64,000 bases of DNA from Rosa chinensis (Eukaryota; Streptophyta; Magnoliopsida; Rosales; Rosaceae), in contig NC_037094.1 in assembly GCF_002994745.2 (NCBI RefSeq), positions 67,146,319 through 67,210,318 of the forward strand, read 5' to 3'. Every line of letters begins with the position of its first letter. The first letter of the stretch is position 1. The translations under genes were made by a program, and so were the position numbers. Of this stretch, positions 19,035-58,714 are shown piece by piece. The notes beneath the pieces were generated by a model. That model had not been told where the DNA came from. It did not search any database and worked only from the letters and a program-made list of their open reading frames with translations.

Positions 19035-22000
19035 ATGGATTTTCCATTACCAAAGAGAAGAAAAACCAATACGGATTCAATTACTCCTTCCTCTTCTCCT
19101 CTTACCCATTCATGTCCATACGATGTTTTTTTGAGTTCTAGAGGTGTGGATACACGAAACAACTTCACAGGCCATTTGTACACTTATTTGGTTCAGAAGG
19201 GAATTGAAACCTTCATAGACGACGAAGAGCTTAGAAAAGGAGAAGAAATATCATCTGCACTTCTCAAAGCAATTCAAGGGTCAAAGATTTCTATAGTCAT
19301 ATTCTCTGAAAACTACGCATCGTCAGGGTGGTGTTTGGATGAACTTGTTAAGATCCTTCAATGTAAGGAGTTGATGCATCAATTGGTTTGGCCAGTGTTT
19401 TACAAGGTGGATCCGTCCGATGTACGGTACCAGAAGGGTAAATATGGTGAGGCACTTGCTAAACATGAGTGCAGATTCAAGGACAACATGGTCAAGGTGC
19501 AAAGCTGGAGGACTGCTCTTAGGGATGCAGCAAACTTATCAGGGTGGACTTTCTTAGACGGGTATATTTCCATATTTGAACATGGTTTCTTTTTAATTTT
19601 TAACAGTCCAAACCCTCATACAGAACATACGCACACGCTAATCTCCAAAATGTCTCAATAGTACTTGCTCATTTGTTTAGTTGATCATGGAAGTTCTAAG
19701 CCAGGTGAGGTTATCCGATTTAAAGTTCTTTAAAAAACATTGTTGTTTCATAAAATTTTGGATCATTTTGCCATCGCAAAGTTGCATCTGACAAAATATT
19801 TTTGACAAGTAAATTTGCAGGCATGAAGCTAATTTCATTAGTACGATTGCTGATGAGATTTCAGCACAAGTATCAAGACGTAGCTATTTAAATGTGGCAA
19901 AGTATCCTGTTGGAATAGAGTCTCCTGTACAAGAAATGCTTAAGCTTTTAGATGTCGGGGGAAGTGATGTTCGCATGGTTGGTATATGGGGTATTGGCGG
20001 GTTAGGCAAAACAACAATTGCTAAAGCTGTTTACAACTCAATTGCCCACAAGTTTGAAGGTTGCTGTTTCTTAGGAAATGTTAGAGCAGATTCAGAACCC
20101 TATGGAGGCCTAGTTCGACTACAAAATAACCTTCTTTATGAGACTTTAGGGGACCGGAAAATGAAGATGACTGATGCTGATAGAGGAATCCAAGTAATAA
20201 AGGAAAGGTTAGGTAGAAAAAGGGTTCTCTTAGTTCTTGATGATGTGAATGAATTGAACCAGTTGGACAAGTTAGCTGGAGGATTGGATTGGTTTGGTTG
20301 TGGCAGCAGAATTATCATCACAACAAGAGATAAACGTTTGCTAATTGCTCATCAAGTCTATCCAATATACACAGCCAAGGCATTAGATAAAGATGAAGCC
20401 CGTAACCTCTTGATTTTGAATGCCTTCAAGGATAACAGAAATCCAGATGAGTGTGTGCAATTCCCAATTGATACTGCTGTGCTCTATACTCACGGCCTTC
20501 CATTAGCTGTAAACATTTTAGGTTCACTTCTCTGTGGGAAGAGTATAATTCAATGGCATGCTGCATTAGATAGTTACAGAAGATTTCCTAACAGCAATAT
20601 CCAAAAAGTCCTCCAAACAAGTTATGATGCATTGGAAGATCCGTTGAAAGAAGCATTTCTCGACATTGCATGTTTCTTGAAGGGTAAATATAAGGAGTAT
20701 GTGATGCAAGCACTAGAGGCTCTAGAGGGTTCTTACCTCAACCCTATAGATGCTATTGAAGTACTTGAAGAAAAGGCCCTTGTAAATACTGATAAATTTG
20801 GTAAGATTTTGATGCATGACTTGCTGGAGGAAATGGGAAAAGAAATAGTTCGTAAAGAGTCACCCGAAGATGCTGGAAGACGTAGCAGATTATGGTTTCA
20901 TGAGGATGTTTGTCGTGTTTTAACCGAAAACACAGTAAGTAAAGAACCTGTATCCTTCTCTTTGTGTGTGGTGTGTGTGTAGAGTATCTTGATCGTCAAA
21001 AATAAAGTATATAGTAATTGCTCTGCTCATCCTATTTTTGCTCATATCAGGGCTCAAATAAAGTTAAAGGCATCAGAGTAGAGCTACCAAGAGAAGATGA
21101 GATATGCTTGAGTGCTAAATGCTTTAAAAAGATGAAAAATCTTCAACTTTTTATAAACATTAATGCAAGCTTCTCTGGAGAGGTTAATTATCTCCCAAAT
21201 CAGTTGAAATTCCTTGATTGGCCCGGTTTCCCAGCACAATCTTTGCCATCCAACTTCAATCCACAAAAACTAGTCGAGCTCAATATGCCAAACAGTCGCA
21301 TCTCACGACTTGGGCAAGGACTCAAGGTATTCTAGACGGTTAACTATCCATTTGGGGTTTTGAAGAACTTTTTTTTTTTTTTTTTTTAAGGAAGAATTTG
21401 AAGAGCTATATTTTGAATTGTTATAAATTTTTTCTGAAGCTCATCACATTATCTTTCCTTTCTTGAGTTGCAGAATTTGCAAAATTTGAAATCTTTAAGT
21501 TTTGAAAGTTGCAAATTCCTAACAGAGGTCCCTGACTTGACTGGAATGTTCCCAAAGTTGGAGAGGTTGAACTTAAGTTTCTGTATGAGTTTATCTGAGT
21601 TGCATCCTTCTGTTGGATTCCTTGATAAGCTTGTCTACTTTGATATTAAGGATTGCTATAACCTTAAGATGTTTCCAAGAATAGTCAACATGAAATCTCT
21701 GCAAGAAATTAGTTTTGAAGGCTGCAAGAGGCTCAAAAACTTCCCAGAAATTGTAGGAAGGATGGAATCCTTAAAACGCATGAATTTGTCTAGAACTGCC
21801 ATCAAAGAAGTGCCTTCATCAATTGGATATGATCTCTTCAATCTTCAGGTTTTGTATTTACAAAAATGTGAAAACCTTACGAATCTGCCGCTCAGCATTT
21901 ATGAGTTGCAAGATCTAAGGTATCTTCAACTCAAAGGTTGCACAAAACTGGTGTTAATTCCATTTCTGAATAAGGAGAAATACTGTGAAGTTCTTGCTCC

Positions 22001-23281
22001 AACGTCTAACTCAAATATTTCACATTACGGCAAGGCAACTTCTATCCAGGAGGCTGATGATGATGCTGATGATGGTCAAGGCAATTTAGCGTTTCCTTCA
22101 CTACGTTACTTCTTTGTGGGAGGATGCTATACTTCAGACTGTGATTTCCTTGTGACGCTTGGTTGTGCCTCCACCTTAAAACAGCTTGATTTTTCAGAAA
22201 GCAATTTCGTTAGTCTTCCTGCTAGCCTTCCAAAATTTATCAACTTGGAGTGCCTTAACTTGAGTGGGTGCAAGAGGCTTCAAGATGTTCTGGAGCTTCC
22301 ACCAAATTTGAAACGGTTATATGTGAGAGGTTGCGTGTCATTGGAAAGAATTTCAAAGTTATCAAACATTTTGAAACATCAAGAATCGCAAATGTTTGAG
22401 CAGCTGGACTTGAGCAATTGCTGGAGACTTTGTGACAATCTGGTGCAGGAGGCAGAGAAAAAAGGTTTGTTAGTGAATGATGGTGATCATCAGGTGGAGG
22501 TTGATCTGTTCTCTCTTTTTCTCTCTTCCCAGAAGTCTGCATTCAGGGTTGTATTTCCAGCAAGTCATGAAATTCTAGAGTGGTTCAGCTGTCAAATGGA
22601 TTTCAAAGGGAATGGACTATTTGAATTTTATATTCAAGTCCTTCCTAATTTCAAATGGGAGAACACAGGATTAGTTCTATATGTTGCTGCCGATGAGATG
22701 CTAAATTGGGGATTCGAAATTCGTATTAATAAAGTACTGGTGCGGAGTAATTTAGATGATCGTTTCTGTAAAGGATTTCATGAAGCTGATTCGGCCCGTG
22801 TGTGGCTGCATTATATTCCGTTCGATAGAATTGATATGCGTCTGTTTGGTTATAGGCGTCCGCTGCCACCTTTTCAATGTCGAGTTACTATTTATCAAAC
22901 TCTCAATTCTAACGTGGTTCCCTTGAAACGCTGCGGAGTTCACCTGGTAATGCCACCAAATGAAGTGTGTATGAAACTATCCCAGACACAGAATCTCAGG
23001 AATAGACTCAAAGCAGGTCTCTTTTTTTTTCGTTGTGGAGACTTTATTTTTACAGATTAATTATGGTGTTTTCTCGGTTAGGACTTTTGGCTGCTGGATG
23101 TTGTAGAATTGATTATGCAGTTTTTCTTTCTCTATTGGTGAATGGTTGATAACTTTCCCCTGTTTTCAAAACAGAGGTCTATGTTGATGAACTCGAATCA
23201 AGTGACTCAAACAGCAAGTTGGCATATAGCTCAAGAGAAGAAGGGCCGTCAGGACTCAAGAGAGGCCGAATTGATCTTTAA
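19035..23281 (+). CDS. TIR-NBS-LRR disease-resistance receptor (TNL1)
   Basis: Predicted intracellular immune receptor of about 1188 residues. Exons by GT-AG borders are 19035-19561, 19821-20934, 21051-21326, 21474-23016 and 23175-23281; the frame stays open across all joins. It has an NLS-like PKRRK (residues 6-10), a TIR domain (from residue 28; DVFLSSRG, SGWCLDEL with the catalytic-type Glu), an NB-ARC (GIWGIGGLGKTT, LLVLDDV, GSRIIITTRDKR, HGLPLA, MHDLLEEMG), LRRs in exon 4 and a post-LRR C-JID region. TIR normally reads DVFLSFRG, so Ser35 is unusual. Retention of intron 1 would give a TIR-only protein ending at 19661, and retention of the last intron would end it at 23060. An alternative ATG lies at 18933. 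Recognition specificity is unknown. Confidence 0.88.
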
Positions 23282-43950: not shown

Positions 43951-44151
43951 ATCCGCTTTGTCATGATAATGAAAATTCATGCGCATTATCCATACACACT
44001 TACTGTGATAAAGCATTTTCACATAGCATCGAAAGAAAAAATGTGACCATTACGAATCTTGGTCTTGAAATTTAATTCACATTTTTGGAAAATAATTTAC
44101 GTGGATGTCTTTATGACTGCATAATTTATATCTTCTCTCTTGTTTATGTAG

Positions 44152-45208
44152 ATGGCTGATCCAACTCGACCTGAATTTGACATCTTGGACACAAAATGAC
44201 TTGAGTACCATCGTTGGGTTTCCGATGTGGAAATTGCCTTTGTGGCAAAAGACTACACTGCCACCATTACCGGATGAACCATCTAATAAGGTGAAAGCAA
44301 ATGCCTTAATGTTTCTGAGGCAACATATTGATCCTAGCCTATGCTGGGAGTACTTTCAGTTGAAGACACCCAAAGAACTGTGGGATGCCCTTAAGGGACG
44401 TTTTGGGAACATTCATGACACTTTGCTCCCAGAACTGGCCGTTCAGTGGAATGGAATCCACTTGCTTGACTATAATAGGGTCAATGACTTCAACAAGGAT
44501 ATGTTGCACTTAAAGGCACGTCTAAACTTATGTGGAAGGGAAATCACAGAAGATGATATGATCTACAAGACTCTTTCCACCTTTCCTACTTCAGCGCTTA
44601 TACTAGCGAACCAGTATAGGCTGGAGTATGACAACAAAAGAATCACAACCTTCAACAAGTTGATCAGCCTACAGCAAGTGGCTGAGAGGCATAATGAGGT
44701 TCTCTTGAACAACAATGCCAGGCCCACTGGGACAATGAAAATTCCCGAGGCTAATTATGGAAAAATGAAAGGTGGAAAGAACTCCAATGTAAAGGGGTTT
44801 AAATGTGCTGATCCCTACCCATGTGGCAACAACGCACCATGTGGCAAGGGACATAGGGGTCGTGGTATGGGCCATGGAGGCCCTCCCAATATATGGAGTA
44901 GAGATGGTGATGCTGGCCCTAGTGGTCATCGAAACAAGGTGCAAAGGGCACCTACGAACCCTTCAGTCAAACAGGATAGAGTTGGCAATGAACCATGCTA
45001 TAGATGTGGAGTCATTGGGCATTGGTACATGAACTGCCAAGCAAGCAACATAGTTGTAGCCACTTACAAGAGGTATAGGGAGTCTAAAGAACAAGAGGCT
45101 CACTATAAGGAAGAAGAAGGTCATGTCGCAGATGTCAACTTCACTATTGCAAACTTCAATGGCAACAAGGAACTTGCTCCGTCAAAGGATGCTTCAGACT
45201 TTGACTGA
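44152..45208 (+). pseudogene. Copia-3 gag
   Basis: The ATG at 44152 follows TTGTTTATGTAG, again a splice-acceptor-like border. A TGA stop (about 44197) and a frameshift near the start are followed by a long open part (44177-45208). This part has ELWDALKGRFGNIHD, a zinc knuckle CYRCGVIGHWYMNC and the terminal DFD motif before TGA. It is about as long as the other two Gags. Confidence 0.85.
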
Positions 45209-45469
45209 TCTTTATTTATTTTCCAAAGACAGATGTGAAGGCATAATGCCTCATTTTTAATTAGACCAATGTATGGTTTTAAAGTTTATTTCAATAATGG
45301 TTTGATGAATAAGAACAAGACCGTGATTTGATTATCGTTGGCTTATTAATAAATTTCAAATTTTATTCTGAAGCACTGAATTTATTCAAATTTATTTACT
45401 ACACATATTTACATGGTTCGAAATAGCACTATGAAGATAAAGCAATACATCTAGAGAAAAATTATTAGA

Positions 45470-47744
45470 ATGAAAAGATTATCATTCTACTTAAATAGAA
45501 ATACTCTAAAGAATATGAGATATGCTTTGTATGCATCAAGAGCTAATCGAACCTTGTTAAGTTTCAAAGATACTCGTGCCAACGGTTATCATGGAAAAAC
45601 ACACTATGAGAATGGAACTGAATACCTTTATATTACCTCTAATAAATGTGGAAGGAAACTCATTTTAGAGAAACTTATGAGTCAATCTAGTGGATTGTAC
45701 CTTACTACGATTCGGATAATTGAATCCGATGCTGTCACCAACAATGAAATGTAGGACAATGACTCATACAGGCTTTGGCATGACCGCCTAGGGCACCCCG
45801 GTCGTGACATGATGATCCGTATTTTAAAGAACACATATGGACATCCCTTCTTTCGAGTGAAAAATAAAGTAGGAGAAAAATCCGCCACACTGCAAGGTGT
45901 CGGTCCTAGTACTGCTTCAATGCAGCCATTGCCTTCTGACGTACCAGAAGCACTATATCCCTCCCATTATGCATCATTGACTATTTCAAAGGCACATCAC
46001 TCATTTTTCAAAGCCTTCTCTTTAGCAAAAACAGGATTAAGACCTTCCTATGCTAAAGACACAAAACTAAACATTCCATTCTTACAAAGGATACAAGGAG
46101 ATATCTGTGGACCATTCAAGTACTTTATGGTTCTGGTGGATGCTTCGACACGCTGACCGCATGTCATTTTATTCTCCACAAGAAATGCTGCATTTGTAAA
46201 ACTCCTAGCACAGATTATACGTTTAAGGGCTCACCACCCTGATCATCATATCAAGTCTATAAGGCTTGACAACGCTGGAGAGTTTACATCAAAAGCATTT
46301 GATGATTATTGCATGTCTATCGGGATCGATGTAGAGCATCTTGTATCCCATGTGCATACACAAAATGGTCTCCCAGAAGCCACCATCAAAAGGCTACAGA
46401 TGGTGGCTAAGGCATTGGTTATGCGCACCAACCTGCCTATATTTGCATGGGGTTATGCAATATTGCACGCAGCTATACTTATTCGTTTCAGACCCACTGT
46501 TAGCCAACCATTTTCTGCGTACCAGTTGGTAACTGGAAATGAGCCTGACATTTCACACTTACGCATATTTGGTTGCGCAGTATATGTGCCTCTTATGCCC
46601 CCACAGCGCACCAAAATGGGTCCCCAGAGACGATTAAGTATTTATGTTGGATACGAATCCCCAACAATTATCCGCCATTTGGAACCCTTGATAGGCAATC
46701 TCTTTACCGCTAGATTTGTGGATTGTCACTTTGATGAGACAGTCTTCCCGTCGTTAGGGGGAGATAGGAAAAAGGATTTTCCAAGGGAACGACAGGAATT
46801 GTCGTGGTTTGTCCCCACTCTGTCTCATTTTGATCCCTGCACTTCACAAAGTGAAAGTGAAGTGAAAAAAAGAAGAATCGATCTTCAGAACGTAGCAGAT
46901 TCGATGCCTGATGCATTTACAGATATAGCAAAAGTGACGAGATCACATATACCAGCTGCAAATGTGCCTGCAAGGTTAGAAGTCCCCAACAAAGGGCAAG
47001 GTGCCTTAGACAGAGGCGCTGCAACCACACTTAGTGGCGGTGTGGTTGAGGTCGTGCTCCCCAAAGGAAGAGGGGGAGGCCACTTGGTTCGATTGACACT
47101 CACCCAAGGAAGAAGAGGGTGAGTAAGGCAGAAAACGATCCATTAATCATCAATGTCGAGAATCCCTCTCATGAGATTGTCTCTGATTATAGTTATATCC
47201 ATAAATCAACACTAGAGGATGCTCCGATGTTTGAAATGATTCCAGAGAACAAAGAAATCTCAATGGATTATGAGAGTGCGTATGAGTTGATAGAAAGATC
47301 TTCCATACACATTGATGATGTATTTGCATACACTGTTGCTCAAGAAATCATAGAGCACGATGATATCGAACCACGCTCTGTTGTAGAATGTCAACAAAGA
47401 GCAGATTGGCCTAAATGGAAAGAAGCAATCCAGGCAGAATTAGATTATTTGACAAAGAGACAGGTATTTGGTCCGGTAGTGCTAACCCCACCAAGTGTAA
47501 AGCTTGTAGGACATAAATAGGTCTTTGTCAGAAAGCGTAATGAGAAGAGTGAAGTCCTGAGGTACAAGGCTCGCCTTGTGGAGCAAGGTTTCTCACAACG
47601 CCCTGGAATTGACTATAAGGAGACATACTCTCCCATAATGAACGTTATAAAGTTCTGCTACTTAGTTAGCTTGGTAGTTTCCGAAGGACTGGAAATGCAG
47701 CTCATGGATGTGGTTACTGCATATCTCTATGAGGATCTTGATTC

Positions 47745-49335: not shown

Positions 49336-50220
49336 TGTCAAATGTATCAATTTTCAATTTCTTACTTTTTAGAACGCAATTGTAAATCGGTAAATTAAAC
49401 GAAAAATTTAGGAAATTAAAATGATATACATGGGTAAGGTAATGATGATGGTATCAAATGGTCTGATTATGAGCCCCCGTAGATATTTAAGGAGCTAAAA
49501 TGAAATGGTTCGAGATTTAATTTGTAATCTAGTAATTGTTAAGGATCCTCGAGATTATTTCCTGAATTTTCCTTAAGGTGAAATCTTCAATTTAACGGTT
49601 TGATGATAAGTTACACGACATGACGAGTCGTGAAAATTTTCAGAGAATTTTTCAGTCACCCGAGTTATTTATTATGAATTTTGGAAGTTTGAAAATTATG
49701 GAATTTTTTTTAAAATAAAAGAAAAATTAACTGAGCGATCTGGACCGTTGATTCCAATCACCATTAAATCTAAACCGTTGATTTGAAGCATTAACCCCCG
49801 ATTTGATCTTATGAATCGAAAGCTCCAGATTTTTGGAAAGATGACGACCCTTTTCTCGACCCGCGAAAGCAACCCGGTCGGAACTCTGCTGTCCGGCCAT
49901 TAAGAGGCGGCACAGCGGTGACGTTCTCATATCCGACCTCCCTCTGGTCTTGGTTCGTCCAATCTCCAAACGAGGAAGAAGAATCAAAGCCGAGAAGTTT
50001 CGGCAGCTCCGGCGGTTCTGCAATTTTTCCGGCGACTCCGGTCACCTTCGGTGATGCATGAGGTATGAAACTCGACCTGATCATCACGCTCTACAAGTTG
50101 GTATAATTGGATTTCAGTTTTGATTAAGTTTTTGAGGAGGTGGTATTTGAGGTGAATTCGGCCACCGCGAGTTCACTGTGTGTGGTGGCGGTTTGGTCTT
50201 TCAGTTGACTGCTGGATATT
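49336..50220 (+). other. Possible fragment of a long-LTR element
   Basis: The style (TCACCCGAGTTATTTATTATG, CTGGACCGTTGATT repeats, GC-rich stretch, then TCATCACGCTCTACAAGTTGG) resembles long gypsy LTRs, but no ends or target duplication could be found. Open stretches on the minus strand near 49.7-50.1 kb match no known protein. Confidence 0.3.
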
Positions 50221-51030
50221 GTAGAATTGATTATGCAGGTTTTAATTGCTATTGGACTATTTGTGGTGGTTGATAAATTTCCCCTGTTTTCAAAACAGAG
50301 GACTATGTTGATGAACTCGAATCAAGTGACGACTATGTTGATGAACTCGAATCAAGTGACGACTTTGTTGATGCCCTGACAGTGATTCAGCAAGAAGCTC
50401 AAGAGAAGAAGGGCCGTCAGGACTCAAGAGAGGCCGAATTGATCTTTAATCGGGTAGGTCCTTCAAATTCTTCACCATTCCGAATTTGTATACGGTTAAG
50501 AACTTTTGTTTGTGATAAAAGGTTAGGAACTTAAGATAACACGTACCAAACATCCTACAGCTGCTATTATATGTACGTTTTGCAAACGTGTTGAGTTTTT
50601 TTGCTATTGATGGTTGATAACTTTCCCTTGTGTTCAAAGCCTTTTTTCAAAACAGAGGACCATGTTGATGAAATCGAATCAAGTTTGCTTGATTAGAGCT
50701 AATGACAGCAAGTTATTGGAAAATAGCTCTGGAGAAAAAGGGCCGTCAGGAGAGGACAAATTTGTCTTTAATTAGTTCGGTCAGTCCAAATTCTTCACCA
50801 TTCCATTAATCTTGAAATAACTGGTGTTACATTGATATATAAAAGTATAAGGTTAAGATAAACACATATCTACCCTCCTACGGCTGCGATATGAACGTAT
50901 GTGTTTTTTGACTTTTGTGTATGTAGAACGTATGTGTTTTTGTGCATGTAGCTAGAACCTATGTGTTTTGGTATACCAGTATAATGTTTGACTGTTCTTT
51001 TGTAGTCAGTGACATGAGTTGTTTTCATAT
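50221..51030 (+). pseudogene. Orphan 3' end of a TNL gene
   Basis: From 50209 the sequence matches the last intron and last exon of TNL1 and TNL2 (GCTGGATATTGTAGAATTGATT...CCCCTGTTTTCAAAACAG). The exon after 50298 contains two 30-bp in-frame copies encoding DYVDELESSD and continues to GRQDSREAELIFNR before a GTAGGT donor-like site. A second, decayed copy follows at 50590-50760. The rest of the gene is absent. This marks a third TNL duplication event. Confidence 0.75.
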
Positions 51031-51419: not shown

Positions 51420-51550
51420 TGTGGAATAAGTTAAGATGATGATCGTGTTCTGAATCTATTTGAGAAACTTTTGTGGAATACAGTATTGTTTTAAATGGAA
51501 GTAGATTAATCTTCTGGTTGTTTAATTGTGTCATTGTGATATTCTTTCGA
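51420..51550 (+). repeat. Fragment of COX5C 3' flank
   Basis: TTTTAAATGGAAGTAGATTAATCTTCT and neighbouring sequence match 9660-9790, downstream of COX5C. No COX5C coding sequence is left here. The similarity fades just before the unusual first exon of TNL2. Confidence 0.75.
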
Positions 51551-51615
51551 TCATTGCAAAAAACATAGCCATTTGAATATTCGAATCCGTGTCAAAGAAA
51601 GTTCTCTCTCTCAAA

Positions 51616-54600
51616 ATGGCTCTGCAACTCTGGGAAACACTGAAGGACGCGATCGTGGCCTACACGGGCCTATCTCCGGCGATCTTCTTCACACTCTTGG
51701 CTCTGCTCGTGGCCACCTACCATATGCTTTCTGGGCTTTTTGGGCCATCCGATACCCACCAGCGGCCCAGCAGCTTGGAGGAGATGCAGCCTCTGCCGCC
51801 GACGGTCCAGCTCGACGAGATCACCGAGGAGGAGCTAAAGCAGGACGACGGCTCCGATCCCAAGAAGCCTCTGCCTAGGGCTATCAATACGGATTCAATT
51901 ACTCCTTCCTCTTCTCCTCTCACCCGTTCACGTCCATACGATGTGTTTTTGAGTTTTAGAGGTATGGATACACGAAACACCTTCACAGGCCATTTGCACG
52001 CTTATTTGGTTCAGAAGGGAATTAATACCTTCATAGATGACGAAGAGCTTAGAAAAGGAGAAGAATTATCAGCTGCACTTCTCAAAGCAATTGAAGAGTC
52101 AAAGATTTCTATTGTCATATTCTCTGAAAACTACGCATCCTCAGGGTGGTGTTTGGATGAACTTGTTAAAATCCTACAATGTAAGGAGTTGAAGCAACAA
52201 TCGGTTTGGCCGGTGTTTTACAAGGTGGATGCCTCCGATGTACGGTACCAGAAGGGTAAATACGGTGAGGCACTTGCTAAACATGAACGCAGATTCATGG
52301 ACAAGGTGCAAAGATGGAGAACGGCTCTTACGGATGCAGCTAATTTATTAGGGTGGACTTTCTTCGACGGGTATATTTCCATATTTGAACATGGTTTTTT
52401 TTTTTTTTCCCTTCATTTTTTTATATAGGCCAAACCCTCACACTGTCACACATATATTAATCTCCAAAACACTGTTTTGTCTAATAAAATATTTTTTGCA
52501 TTTAAATTGGCAGGCACGAAGCTAAGTTCATTAGTAAGATTGCTGAAGATATTTCAACACAAGTATTAAAACGTACCTATTTAAATGTGGCAAAGTATCC
52601 CGTTGGAATAGAGTCTCGTGTACAAGATGTGCTTAAGCTTCTAGATGTCGGCAGAAGTGATGTTGGCATTGTTGGTATATGGGGTATTGGCGGGATAGGC
52701 AAAACAACAATTGCTAAAGCTGTTTACAACTTAATTGCTTATAAGTTTGAAGGTTGGTGTTTCTTGGCAAATGTTAGGGCAGCTTCAGTACCCCATCAAG
52801 GCCTAGTTCAACTACAAATTAATCTTCTTCATGAGATTTTAGGGGGGCAGAAAATGGAGATGATTGATGCTGATAGAGGAATCCAGGTGATAAAGGAAAG
52901 ATTGGGTGGTAAAAGGGTGCTTTTAGTTCTTGATGATGTGAATGAATTGAACCAGTTGGACAAATTAGCTGGAGGATTGGATTGGTTTGGTCCTGGCAGC
53001 AGAATTATCATAACAACAAGAGATAAACGTTTGCTAATTGCTCATCAAGTCTATCCAATATACAAGGCCAAGGCATTAGGTAATGATGAAGCCCGTAACC
53101 TCTTGATTTTGAATGCCTTAAAGAAAAACAGTAATCCAGATGAGTATCTGAAATTCCCAATTGATACTGCTGTACTCCATACTCATGGCCTTCCATTAGC
53201 TATAAACATTTTGGGTTCCCTTCTCTGTGGTAAGAGTATAAGTCAATGGCATGCTGCATTAGATAGTTTCAGAAGATTTCCCAACAGCGATATCCAAAAA
53301 GTCCTTGAAACAAGTTACAAGGCATTGGATTATCCATTGAAAGAAGCATTTCTCGACATTGCATGTTTCTTAAACTGTGAAGATAAGGACTATGTGATGC
53401 AAGCACTAGATAGTTCTTGCCTCAACCCTATAGATGCTATTGAAGCACTTGAAGAAAAGGCCCTCTTAAATACTGATAGATCTGGTATGATTTGGATGCA
53501 TGACTTGCTGGAGGAAATGGGAAAAGAAATAGTTCGTAGAGAGTCACCTGCAGATGCTAGCGGACGTAGCAGACTATGGTTTCATGAGGATGTTCATCGT
53601 GTTTTGACTGAAAATACAGTATGTATAGAACATGTATTCTTCCATAAGTTTTTGTGTGTGTAGAGCTTCTTAATTGTGAAAAATATAGTCGCATATATAT
53701 AGTACTTGCTCTGCTAAGCCTATATTTTTGTTCCATATCAGGGCTCAAAGAAAGTTAAAGGCATCAGAGTAGAGCTATCAGGAGAAGATGAGATATGTTT
53801 GAGTGCTAAATGCTTTAAAAAGATGAACAATCTTCAACTTTTTATAAACATTAATGCACGCTTCTCTGGAGAGGTTAATTATCTCCCAAATCAGTTGAGG
53901 TTCCTTGATTGGCCTGGATTCCCAGCACAATCTTTGCCATCCGACTTCAGTCCACAAAAACTGGTCAAGCTCAATATGCCAAACAGTCACATCTCACGAC
54001 TTGGGCAAGGATTCAAGGTATTCTAAGCTTTTAACTATTAATTTGCTATTTTGCAGAGCTTTTCTATTTTGAATCGTTATAGATTTGTTTTGAAGCTCAT
54101 AATATTATCTTTCCTTTCTTGTGTTGCAGAATTTACAAAATTTAAAATCTGTAAGTTTTAAAAGTTGCAAATTTTTAACAGAGGTCCCTGACTTGTCTGG
54201 AATCCCAAACTTGGAGATGTTGAATTTAAGTTACTGTACAAGTTTAGCTGAGTTGCATCCTTCTGTTGGATTCCTTAATAAGCTTGTTAAATTCGAGATT
54301 ACAAATTGCGACAACCTTAAGATGTTCCCAAGAATAGTCAACATGAAATCTCTGGACTGTTTTGATTTGAGTGGCTGCATGAGGCTCGAGAACTTCCCAG
54401 AAATTGTGGGAAGGATGGAATCCTTAACAACCTTGTTTTTAACTGGAACTGCCATCAAAGAATTGCCTTCATCAATTGGATATGATCTCTTTGATCTTCG
54501 AGTTTTGGATTTATCTTTTTGCAAAAACCTTACTAATCTGCCACTCAGCATTTATGAGTTGCAAAAGCTACGGAATCTTGGACCCAACGGTTGCCGAAAA

Positions 54601-55894
54601 CTGGTGCTACCGTCATTTCCGAAGAAGGTGGAATACTGTGAAGTGCCAACTCCAACATCCAGCTCAAAGATTTCACATTACGGCAAGGCAACTTCAACAG
54701 AAAGAGAAAGTGATTGTGACGGTGATGATCAAGGAAATTTAGCGTTTCCTTCACTAGAGTGCTTCTCAGCGAGAGGATGCTATACTTCGGACCATGATTT
54801 TCTTGTGAGGTTTGATGGTGCCTCCACTTTTACAGTGCTTGATTTTCCAGAAAGCAATTTTGTTAGTCTTCCCGCTTGCGTTACCAAATTTATCTACTTG
54901 GAGGAGCTTTACTTGTGTGGGTGCAAGAGGCTTCAACAAGTTTCGAAGCTTCCACCAAAGTTGAGACTGTTAGATGTGAGAGACTGCGTATCATTGGAAA
55001 GAATTTCAAAGTTATCAAACATTTTGAAACATCAAGAATCGCAAATGTTTCATTGGCTGGACTTGACCAATTGCTGGAGACTGTGTGACAATCTGGTTCA
55101 GGAGGCAGAGAAGAAAGGTTTTTTGGTGAATTATGGTCATCAGGTGGAGGCTGATCTCTTCTCTCTTTTTCTCTTTTCTCAGACTTCTGAATTCGGGGTT
55201 GTACTTCCAGGTTATGAAATTCCAAAGTGGTTCAGCTGTCAAATGGATTTCAAAGGGAATGGACTGTTTGAATTTGGTATTCAAGTCCTTCCTAATTTCA
55301 AATGGGGGAACACAGGATTGGCTCTATGTGTTGCTGCCGAACGGATGCTAGATTGGGGATTCGAAATTTTTATCAACGAAGTACTACTGCCGATTGATAC
55401 TTTAAATGAACTTATCCATTGTGCTTGGGAAGTCAATCCTGGAGATTCGGCTTGTGTGTGGCTGCTTTATATTCCGTTCGATAGAATTGATACGAGTCCG
55501 TTTGATTATAAGCGTCCGCGGGCACCTTTCCAATGTCGAGTTAGTATTTATCAAAGACTCTGTAGTAACATGGTTCCCTTGAAAAGCTGCGGAGTGCACC
55601 TGGTAACGCCACCAAATGAAGTGTGTATGAAACTATCCCACGCACAGAACCTCAGGAATAGACTCAAAGCAGGTCTCTTCTTGTTTGTTGTGGAGACTTT
55701 ATTTTTAGTTTTATCTTTATCGATTATGGTGTTTTCCCGGTTAGGACTTGAGTTGACTGCTGGATATTGTAGAATTGATTCTGCAGTTTTTCTTTGCTAT
55801 TGTTGCTGGTTGATAACTTTCCCCTGTTTTCAAAACAGAGGACGAAGAGCTCAAGAGAAGAAGGGCCGTCAGGACTCGAGAGAAGCGTCTTTAA
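51616..55894 (+). CDS. Chimeric receptor: membrane steroid-binding-protein N-terminus fused to TIR-NBS-LRR (TNL2)
   Basis: Exons are 51616-52370, 52514-53618, 53742-54017, 54130-55672 and 55839-55894 (about 1244 residues, no internal stop). Residues 1-90 match the N-terminus of plant membrane steroid-binding proteins: ALQLWETLKDAIVAYTGLSP, a membrane segment (about 20-42) and DEITEEELKQDDGSDPKKPL, the start of the cytochrome-b5-like fold. From residue 91 (NTDSITPSSSP) it matches TNL1: TIR (107-245, DVFLSFRG, GWCLDEL), NB-ARC (GIGGIGKTT near 305, MHDLLEEMG near 580), LRRs and C-JID (PGYEIPKWFSC near 1068). The steroid-binding core is absent. If translated, the receptor would be membrane-anchored. 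Retention of the last intron keeps an open frame to 55938 with a hydrophobic tail. Assembly error is an alternative. Confidence 0.85.
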
Positions 55895-56299
55895 TTGGGT
55901 TAGTCCTTCAAATCCTTCACCATTCCGAATTTGTATAATTGGGTTAAGAACACCTTTTTTTTTTTTGGTTGGTGATAATGGTTAGGAACTTAAGATAAAA
56001 CCTATCACCCTTCTGCAGCTGCTATGTATGTGTTTGTATGTATAACAGTATAAACTATGCTTTGCTTTCACACTTAAAAAAATAAAATAAATACGCTTTG
56101 CCATGTTTGAACGCTTTTTTTTTTAGTCCACTGACATGAGCCGTCTTCAATTTTTCGGCAACAGATCCAAATCACCTTGTTTCAATATTCCATGAGACCG
56201 TGTGCGTTATGTTTGGATTTAATTGATAGACCAGATACTTGTTTCTTATCAGTTATCATGTAATTAATGGAACTTTTCCCAATTGCAGGATTAAGTGAA
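55895..56299 (+). other. TNL2 3' flank
   Basis: No gene is present. The segment near 56125-56170 (GACATGAGCCGTCTTCAATTTTT) also precedes COX5C pseudogene 1 (about 23822). This supports a duplicated TNL-COX5C block. Confidence 0.6.
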
Positions 56300-57416: not shown

Positions 57417-58714
57417 TTACCATAACAATGACCTCGGCAAAGAGTCAACTCCTTCATGCTCAGAATTTGACAATTCTGAGCCACAGCCTCCGCCAGTAGC
57501 CACTGGTTTGCTTTCAGAGTTTGTAGATCCTGTGCCTATATTGTCTTTACATGCATCTTGATTAACATTTACATCAGAAGTGTCGGACACACAATATTTT
57601 TGCAACCACCTGTCAGTTTCCCATAGCACATGCATGATACTCTCTCTTGCAGCATAGCCATGGCTCTCAAAGGGAAGAATCACAAGGCGGCAAAGAGCAC
57701 CATGACCTTTCAGAGCATTAAAGAAACGATCGGACTGCACAGCACACCAGATCATTAATAGCAAGTCAACAACTTACAAACAAGAAGAAATCCATCACGC
57801 CACTAACATTTAAGCAAACTAAACATCCAATATTGTAGGTTACTTATTTGAAACAATGAAGGGCATGAAGGATGACGGAAATTAATAGTTATAAGCAATG
57901 CTGGAAGGGGCTGGAGGGCCTTTTTACCTGCATGGTTAAAGTCCCTGGATTATTGTCTTCCTCTCCATGGATAAGCAAGATTGGCTTCTTAATTTTATTA
58001 GCTGACATGAAAGGACTCATCTCCACATAAGTACTAGTAGCCTCCCAAAGAGTTCTCTCCTCATTCTATACACAGAAATTAATGAGTCAGACTATCAGAA
58101 TAAGAAATAAAAATCTACTTGGGGACAATATCTTGGCAAGAGAAGAAGGAAGAAGAAAAAAGAAAGAAAAAAAAAAGGTATTTGTTCAATAATAACACTA
58201 ATAACTTTTGGAACAGCTAATAATCTAACAAAATATTTAGCAATCCTAATCAAAGCAATGCCCAACCTGAAAACCAAAAGGAGTAAGTGTTCTGCTGTAA
58301 GCACCCGAACGAGCAATTCCACAAGCAAAAAGATGAGGAGCATGTGCCAGTAGGTTTGCAGTCATGAATGCCCCATATGAATGTCCCCCAACAGCAATTT
58401 TCTTTGGATGAGCTAGGGGTCGTCAACGGGCCGGGCCGGGCCGGGCCGGGCTTTATTAAAAATCAAAGGATCCAAGCCCGTCCATATAAAGCGGGCCTTG
58501 CGGGCTTTATTTATAAATAAATATTTAAAGACACAAGTATTTTTTTTTTTAATCAAGCTTTGGAAATTCAATGGATAATGATCAAATACAACTAAAGATA
58601 ACATATCTATATAACTATATTGTACCCAAAAAAATCTATATTTATATATAGATACTAATTTATTGATAAATAAATTTTTAAAGACACTAATTTTTTATAA
58701 ATCTATATTTATAC

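Follow-up and report, generated by a model that had tools for sequence, protein, structure and literature searches.

The gene F1, located in a 64,000-nucleotide stretch of Rosa chinensis DNA (the window), encodes a TIR-NBS-LRR receptor (TNL) whose N-terminus is the 5' end of a membrane steroid-binding protein (MSBP) gene, joined in frame to the TIR domain. The best overall explanation, which we regard as probable, is an MSBP-anchored endomembrane TNL that goes back to one ancient capture.

The reading frame is unbroken across the joint (ORF 51577-52428), and the spliced model, which is our own and uses ordinary GT-AG splice sites, encodes an open, otherwise complete TIR-NBS-LRR protein of 1244 amino acids. 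The in-frame fusion in an open gene, which a sequence-only reading had proposed, was thereby confirmed. The gene and the anchor-less relative used for comparison consist of the following parts:

51616..52370, plus strand: F1 exon 1, a single open exon with the MSBP-derived piece followed by the TIR domain
51616..51885, plus strand: MSBP-derived coding piece of F1, residues 1-90 (1-87 clearly MSBP), from the protein search and the DNA identity to MSBP exon 1
51676..51741, plus strand: predicted transmembrane or signal-anchor helix, residues about 21-42, from a low-confidence AlphaFold model and Kyte-Doolittle hydropathy
51886..52370, plus strand: remainder of F1 exon 1, with the TIR domain starting at residue 108 and E182 (52159-52161) as putative NADase glutamate
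52514..53618, plus strand: F1 exon 2, coding for NB-ARC and the winged helix, with P-loop (from residue 309), GLPLA (477) and MHD (580)
53742..54017, plus strand: F1 exon 3, start of the LRR region
54130..55672, plus strand: F1 exon 4, LRR and post-LRR
55839..55894, plus strand: F1 exon 5, basic C-terminal tail and stop
19035..23015, plus strand: TNL1, anchor-less close relative with the native start MDFPLPKRRK, four exon matches without internal stop

The exon borders of TNL1 are putative. In F1 the domains are TIR (108-270), NB-ARC (286-521), a ROQ1-type winged helix (528-596) and LRRs, and the TIR match in exon 1 is strong (PF01582, 5.5e-52). The gene therefore belongs to the TNLs, as TIR, NB-ARC with P-loop and MHD, winged helix and LRR are all present in one open gene. 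E182 aligns with the NADase glutamate of RUN1, which points to a catalytic TIR domain; the variant chain 7s2z has alanine at this position and is presumably the E100A mutant. The C-terminus is, by eye, similar to that of R. sericea P0003.

To identify the N-terminus, residues 1-90 of F1 (MALQLWETLKDAIVAYTGLSPAIFFTLLALLVATYHMLSGLFG...ITEEELKQDDGSDPKKPLPRAI; the first 90 codons read MALQLWETLK...GSDPKKPLPRAI) were used as query in a protein search; of 442 candidates, 394 proteins reached E<=0.001. The best match, 'membrane steroid-binding protein 2 [Rosa rugosa]' (E 6.9e-38, 82% identical), is far beyond chance and bears out the earlier proposal that this part is the 5' end of an MSBP gene. Among the matches listed, PF00173 (Cyt-b5) is found on 108 of 120 proteins, and many are named membrane steroid-binding protein. 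The same genome holds a bona fide MSBP gene, exon 1 of which lies at C1:64167337-64167606 on the minus strand and is 89% identical to the F1 piece at the DNA level over 270 nt. At the joint the composition shifts, from a G+C of 0.60 to 0.43 and from a GC3 of 0.77 to 0.41. DNA similarity to TNL1 starts at about 51885, in agreement with the sequence-only reading, which had set its beginning at 51886.

The rest of the Cyt-b5 part of MSBP is encoded by a separate downstream exon, and in R. rugosa MSBP P0008 the Pfam Cyt-b5 domain covers residues 70-164. By this domain span, the captured stretch of about 87 residues comprises the anchor and the linker but ends ~17-20 residues into the Cyt-b5 domain, and hence holds no heme/steroid ligand pocket. 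Pfam detects no Cyt-b5 in the F1 fusion, and residues 1-91 match no Pfam family at all. F1 resembles the MSBP/MAPR proteins (Cyt-b5 fold) in residues 1-87, including an MSBP-type N-terminal transmembrane segment and the first Cyt-b5 residues, but differs from them in lacking the Cyt-b5 core. The proposed kinship to MSBP thus holds for the anchor end, whereas the cytochrome-b5-like ligand fold was not captured.

The joint and the sequence upstream of it were compared with the MSBP gene, with further fusion loci of the rose genome (F2-F4) and with the anchor-less TNLs T6 and T7, which resulted in three more features:

51549..51603, plus strand: TNL-type upstream sequence kept by F1, with approximate boundaries, from matches to F4 and T6
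51604..51615, plus strand: CT-rich leader of about 12 bp, in F1-F4 in place of the roughly 222-bp leader of T6
51883..51887, plus strand: joint with the 5-nt microhomology ATCAA, from comparison of the C1, F1, F4 and T7 sequences

The codons at the joint are GCC ATC AAG in MSBP, AAA ATC AAT in the anchor-less T7 and GCT ATC AAT in both F1 and F4, which places the crossover inside ATCAA (51883-51887). F2 has a deletion at this point and F3 has substitutions. Directly before it, at 51880-51882, F1 carries AGG (Arg89); six relatives (F3, F4, P0002, P0003, P0004 and P0144) have ATG or methionine there, so that F1 no longer has the potential start codon that would sit inside the fusion, right on the former TNL border.

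Upstream of the start codon, 51549-51615 of F1 is 94% identical to F4 (67 bp, next to the ATG), and F1 and F4 match another 381 bp higher up. The stretch 51576-51603 is 96% identical (28 bp) to T6, which has internal stops and is itself broken. F4 matches T6 over 472 bp at 74%, ending 12 bp before the ATG of F4 and 222 bp before that of T6. For F3 the match to T6 comprises 141 bp, for F1 and F2 28 bp each, and in T6 their ends lie only a few bases from that of the F4 match. The 1 kb upstream of MSBP gave no match to the upstream 1 kb of any of F1-F4. Capture of the donor promoter, which had been suggested for F1, was therefore rejected; TNL-type upstream sequence was found in its place. A native leader common to T6 and TNL1 (78% over 150 bp) is missing from the fusions. 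A CT-rich leader is also present in the MSBP gene, and the leader of the fusions probably stems from the MSBP 5' UTR, as far as the origin of so short and simple a sequence can be inferred. Since the T6-type upstream sequence was kept and the native leader is missing, a piece of ~280 nt appears to have replaced ~250 nt of the TNL 5' end. By this comparison, the replaced part would be the TNL's own leader together with its basic (KRRK-type) start, the TNL upstream sequence having stayed in place.

DNA and protein searches of the genome found the anchor adjoining a TIR at four loci:

F1, this window, 51616 onward, plus strand: the only intact fusion locus of the four
F2, C7:35.355 Mb: frameshifted at codon 4, with a stop in the NB-ARC exon
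F3, C7:67.243 Mb, about 45 kb downstream of F1: many stops
F4, C5:59.017 Mb: breaks off within the TIR, followed only by a 33-residue piece of the next exon

That three of the four rose loci are broken counts against the favoured explanation. F1 is not unique, and the search for the same fusion in related genomes, which had been recommended, was successful in other Rosa, in Fragaria and in Argentina. A one-off or an assembly artefact was rejected as explanation because the anchor stands beside a TIR at four loci and in proteins of five other species.

MSBP exon 1 occurs at 22 further places (L023-L044) besides the MSBP gene and the four fusions. Seven of these copies sit within a repeat whose inverted ends measure 142 and 124 bp (78% alike; two copies examined); the repeat also carries other sequence, and we take it to resemble Pack-MULEs. 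Ten belong to a second set starting at exon position 25, and two and three are found in further contexts. Repeated TNL 3'-end fragments at 50189-50804, upstream of F1, match 55738-56033 and a site at about 23 kb, which suggests unequal exchange in the cluster. Between TNL1 and F1 (44117-47520), the translations contain open frames like those of a Copia-type retrotransposon (gag-like with zinc knuckle, and integrase-like). A short GGGCC repeat is located at 58428-58451, some 650 bases past the open frame 57417-57773 of the minus strand.

A search of the protein database with the first 100 residues gave six TNL-length matches, all six of them fusions (two from R. rugosa, two from R. sericea, one each from Fragaria x ananassa and F. 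vesca). This search scored 232 word-sharing candidates of limited length range and missed P0143, so that six is a lower bound. A second search with the TIR-NB region of the Fragaria fusion P0006 yielded 5522 hits, of which the best 120 were listed; eight new ones with at least 77% identity were read, plus P0186 and P0191 as outgroups. It added two proteins of Argentina anserina: P0143 carries the anchor helix, and P0144 is given from the equivalent of Met57 only. Among the matches listed, 14 proteins are at least 77% identical to the TIR-NB region of P0006: seven carry anchor and helix, one begins at Met57 (P0144), one is mixed (P0151) and five have the native start. The latter, of the MD-x-P-x-x-KRRK type, is found in P0135, P0140, P0145, P0155 and P0159, which are 77-88% identical to P0006 over residues 78-420, and the sole Rubus member among the 14 is native. 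P0155, named Rosa chinensis, opens with the same residues as our reading of T7. The mixed R. rugosa protein P0151 is a TNL in which the native KRRK start is combined with an MSBP piece (TLEEMQPLPPTVQLDEITEED) that lies internally, directly ahead of the TIR; it is likely a recombinant of native and fused paralogues. A further entry, P0021 (253 aa, from a 938-nt ENA contig), continues beyond the exon-1 splice site; it is thus genomic or unspliced and gives no proof of a spliced transcript.

For the origin of the fusion we propose that, in an ancestor of roses and cinquefoils/strawberries, a TNL received at its 5' end one piece of MSBP, made up of the CT-rich leader of about 12 bp and of 266-270 nt from exon 1. 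Joining would have occurred within the ATCAA microhomology, as in end-joining or template-switch repair, with the TNL upstream region unmoved and its own leader and basic start replaced. In the product, the first ~90 residues would act as uncleaved signal anchor with a luminal N-terminus and one transmembrane helix (residues about 21-42); behind it, about 60 residues of flexible linker would keep the TIR-NB-ARC-LRR part at the cytosolic face of the ER/endomembrane. After an effector is sensed, signalling would proceed as in other TNLs, through the NADase activity of the TIR. Membrane insertion and topology are here taken by analogy from MSBP and the signalling from knowledge of the TNL family, and we infer that F1 is expressed. 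By these analogies, F1 is most likely an endomembrane-tethered TNL with cytosolic signalling parts, like flax L6 and M.

The comparisons are best read as a single capture that preceded the split of roses and cinquefoils, which is well supported but not proven. We consider it improbable that the fusions instead arose separately in Rosa, Fragaria and Argentina, or by way of transposon-carried MSBP exon 1 copies, which are common in the genome. The joint is the same in Rosa (MAINTDSITPSSSP) and Argentina (KGINTDSRTPSFSP, MDINTDSCTPSSSP), and the fusions read are without a TQQEKAS-like stretch that follows DSI in five of five native database relatives examined, P0155 having a shortened form of it. 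The identity of the joint in Rosa and Argentina and the lack of the neighbouring stretch in both argue against a repeated origin. However, the TQQEKAS-like stretch is missing from TNL1 too, despite its native start, and this counts against a single origin; TNL1 may be a recombinant. In Fragaria 16 residues are missing at the joint, and in F. vesca P0007 four more nearby. The ML tree of the anchors, which kept 16 of 17 sequences (P0144, which is without the part before the Met57 equivalent, was dropped), groups all fusions together, and the unconstrained and the fusion-monophyletic trees are equal in likelihood. An independent Fragaria origin from the Fragaria MSBP was not rejected by an AU test (p 0.258), and the presence of MSBP exon 1 at the 22 further places speaks for a repeated or transposon-carried origin. 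Yet when 23 of the 27 MSBP exon 1 copies (L041-L044 were too short) were placed in an unrooted DNA tree, the four fusions were separated from the remaining copies and the MSBP gene (SH-aLRT 86, UFBoot 88). As the other copies group with the MSBP gene, the transposon-like copies were rejected as source. No match to element family A, the one family covered, was found within 1.5 kb of F1-F4; from these flanks and the tree there is no sign of a transposon-mediated (Pack-MULE-like) capture. TIR and NB-ARC trees (both without P0193 and P0196, the NB-ARC tree with 17 of 19 inputs kept) intermix the fusions with native genes of the same genus, and the 5' module was therefore probably exchanged between paralogues. 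According to PMC5400374, Roseae and Potentilleae fall into one clade with Agrimonieae, the Rubeae having branched earlier (75 Ma), and the Potentilleae are placed in the Paleocene. With a single origin, the capture would then be of Paleocene age or older. The dS between the MSBP gene and the fusion anchors, 0.14-0.18 (four pairs with 57-65 synonymous sites), seems low for so old an event and favours a repeated origin.

The best 19-residue Kyte-Doolittle mean in the F1 anchor is 1.98, over a segment from residue 13 (from 22-25 in most relatives), which agrees with the hydrophobic helix that the sequence-only reading had noticed within residues 1-90. An AlphaFold model of exon 1 has helices at 2-14 and 21-42 and a nearly unstructured linker; its confidence is low (mean pLDDT 49.4, pTM 0.35), and it was kept out of fold searches. 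A hydrophobic N-terminal helix ahead of the TIR, as in signal-anchor TNLs of the L6/M type, is thus predicted for F1. It is possible, if unlikely, that the anchor is passive and that the captured piece mainly supplied a new start codon, the product starting at Met1 or, by leaky scanning, at Met57, with a localisation independent of an anchor that drifts. Such drift would fit the anchor dN/dS of 0.74-1.04 among the rose fusion copies (six pairs), compared with a constrained TIR (0.43 for the single fusion-fusion pair F1-F2; 0.15-0.43 over all ten TIR pairs). The anchor appears hardly constrained and evolves nearly neutrally in rose, so that the sequence evidence for selection on it is weak, although three of the four compared copies are broken, which would raise its dN/dS. 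Hydropathy, too, was kept no better than in neutral simulations at equal amino-acid divergence (five of five tests not significant). F1 also has in-frame methionines at 37, 57 and 117 besides Met1, and the start of P0144 at the Met57 equivalent makes an untethered form possible. Against a passive anchor, the Met1 frame is intact in seven database proteins with helix from five species (P0002-P0007 and P0143), even if annotation favours open frames. Moreover, Met1 lies in a context of A at -3 and G at +4 with no other ATG in the preceding 60 nt, and the anchors of the Rosa and Fragaria fusions are 75-92% identical to that of F1, compared with 83-88% for the TIR (seven comparisons each). The most diverged anchor is that of Argentina P0143, with 24 differences in 87 from the majority anchor. 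That the piece serves as integrated decoy, by which the receptor senses effectors aimed at MSBP or at ER P450 complexes, is very improbable. It is a near-complete copy of the MSBP N-terminal module, and the MSBPs of Arabidopsis scaffold P450s on the ER membrane (PMC12240809) and NLRs with integrated host domains are a known kind (PMC10045381). Only the anchor, however, without the cytochrome-b5 core, is present in the fusion, and its constraint is weak. In addition, we know of no effector that targets MSBP.

The tethered receptor that we favour is of a kind already known, the signal-anchor TNL; new is the derivation of its anchor from MSBP. In flax L6 and M, N-terminal signal anchors set the localisation and, for L6, also the stability (PMC3801107). 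F1 shares with them a hydrophobic N-terminal stretch before the TIR and the expected endomembrane placement, but its anchor is a recognisable piece of ~90 residues of MSBP in place of the basic KRRK-type start. To our knowledge, no donor gene is known for the L6 and M anchors. Like NLRs with integrated domains (e.g., RRS1 with WRKY, mentioned in PMC10045381), F1 is fused to a fragment of a host gene, but the piece is an anchor without Pfam domain, and there is no evidence of a bait role. The anchor-less sister TNLs (TNL1, T6, T7/P0155, P0135, P0140, P0145 and P0159) have the same TIR-NB-ARC-LRR architecture and differ in the MD-x-P-x-x-KRRK-type basic start where F1 has the MSBP anchor. In titles and abstract beginnings no MSBP-TNL fusion was found described, in line with the earlier statement that no description of an MSBP-TIR-NBS-LRR fusion was known. 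A survey of 96 rose TNLs predicted 71 in the nucleus, 15 in the cytoplasm and 10 at the plasma membrane, and the words 'fusion' and 'transmembrane' are absent from its main text (PMC10045381). Because no Pfam model is matched within residues 1-91, a fusion of the F1 type would escape NLR-fusion surveys based on Pfam domains, and other untyped N-terminal captures may be hidden from them likewise.

A wider and unlikely proposal is that of one Rosoideae TNL family with two interchangeable N-terminal address labels, the KRRK start and the ER-scaffold anchor, which are swapped by recombination. Relatives would then sample different compartments, and the anchored forms would guard the ER neighbourhood of MSBP and P450s. 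Label swapping between paralogues is suggested by the intermixing of fusions and native genes within species and by P0151 with its native start and internal MSBP piece. In which compartment a TNL has to be located for sensing and signalling is a matter of ongoing debate. Of TNL1 and F1, which lie in one window and have no internal stops in their exon matches, the former begins with basic residues and the latter with a membrane anchor whose origin is known, and this contrast offers a natural experiment on TNL localisation.
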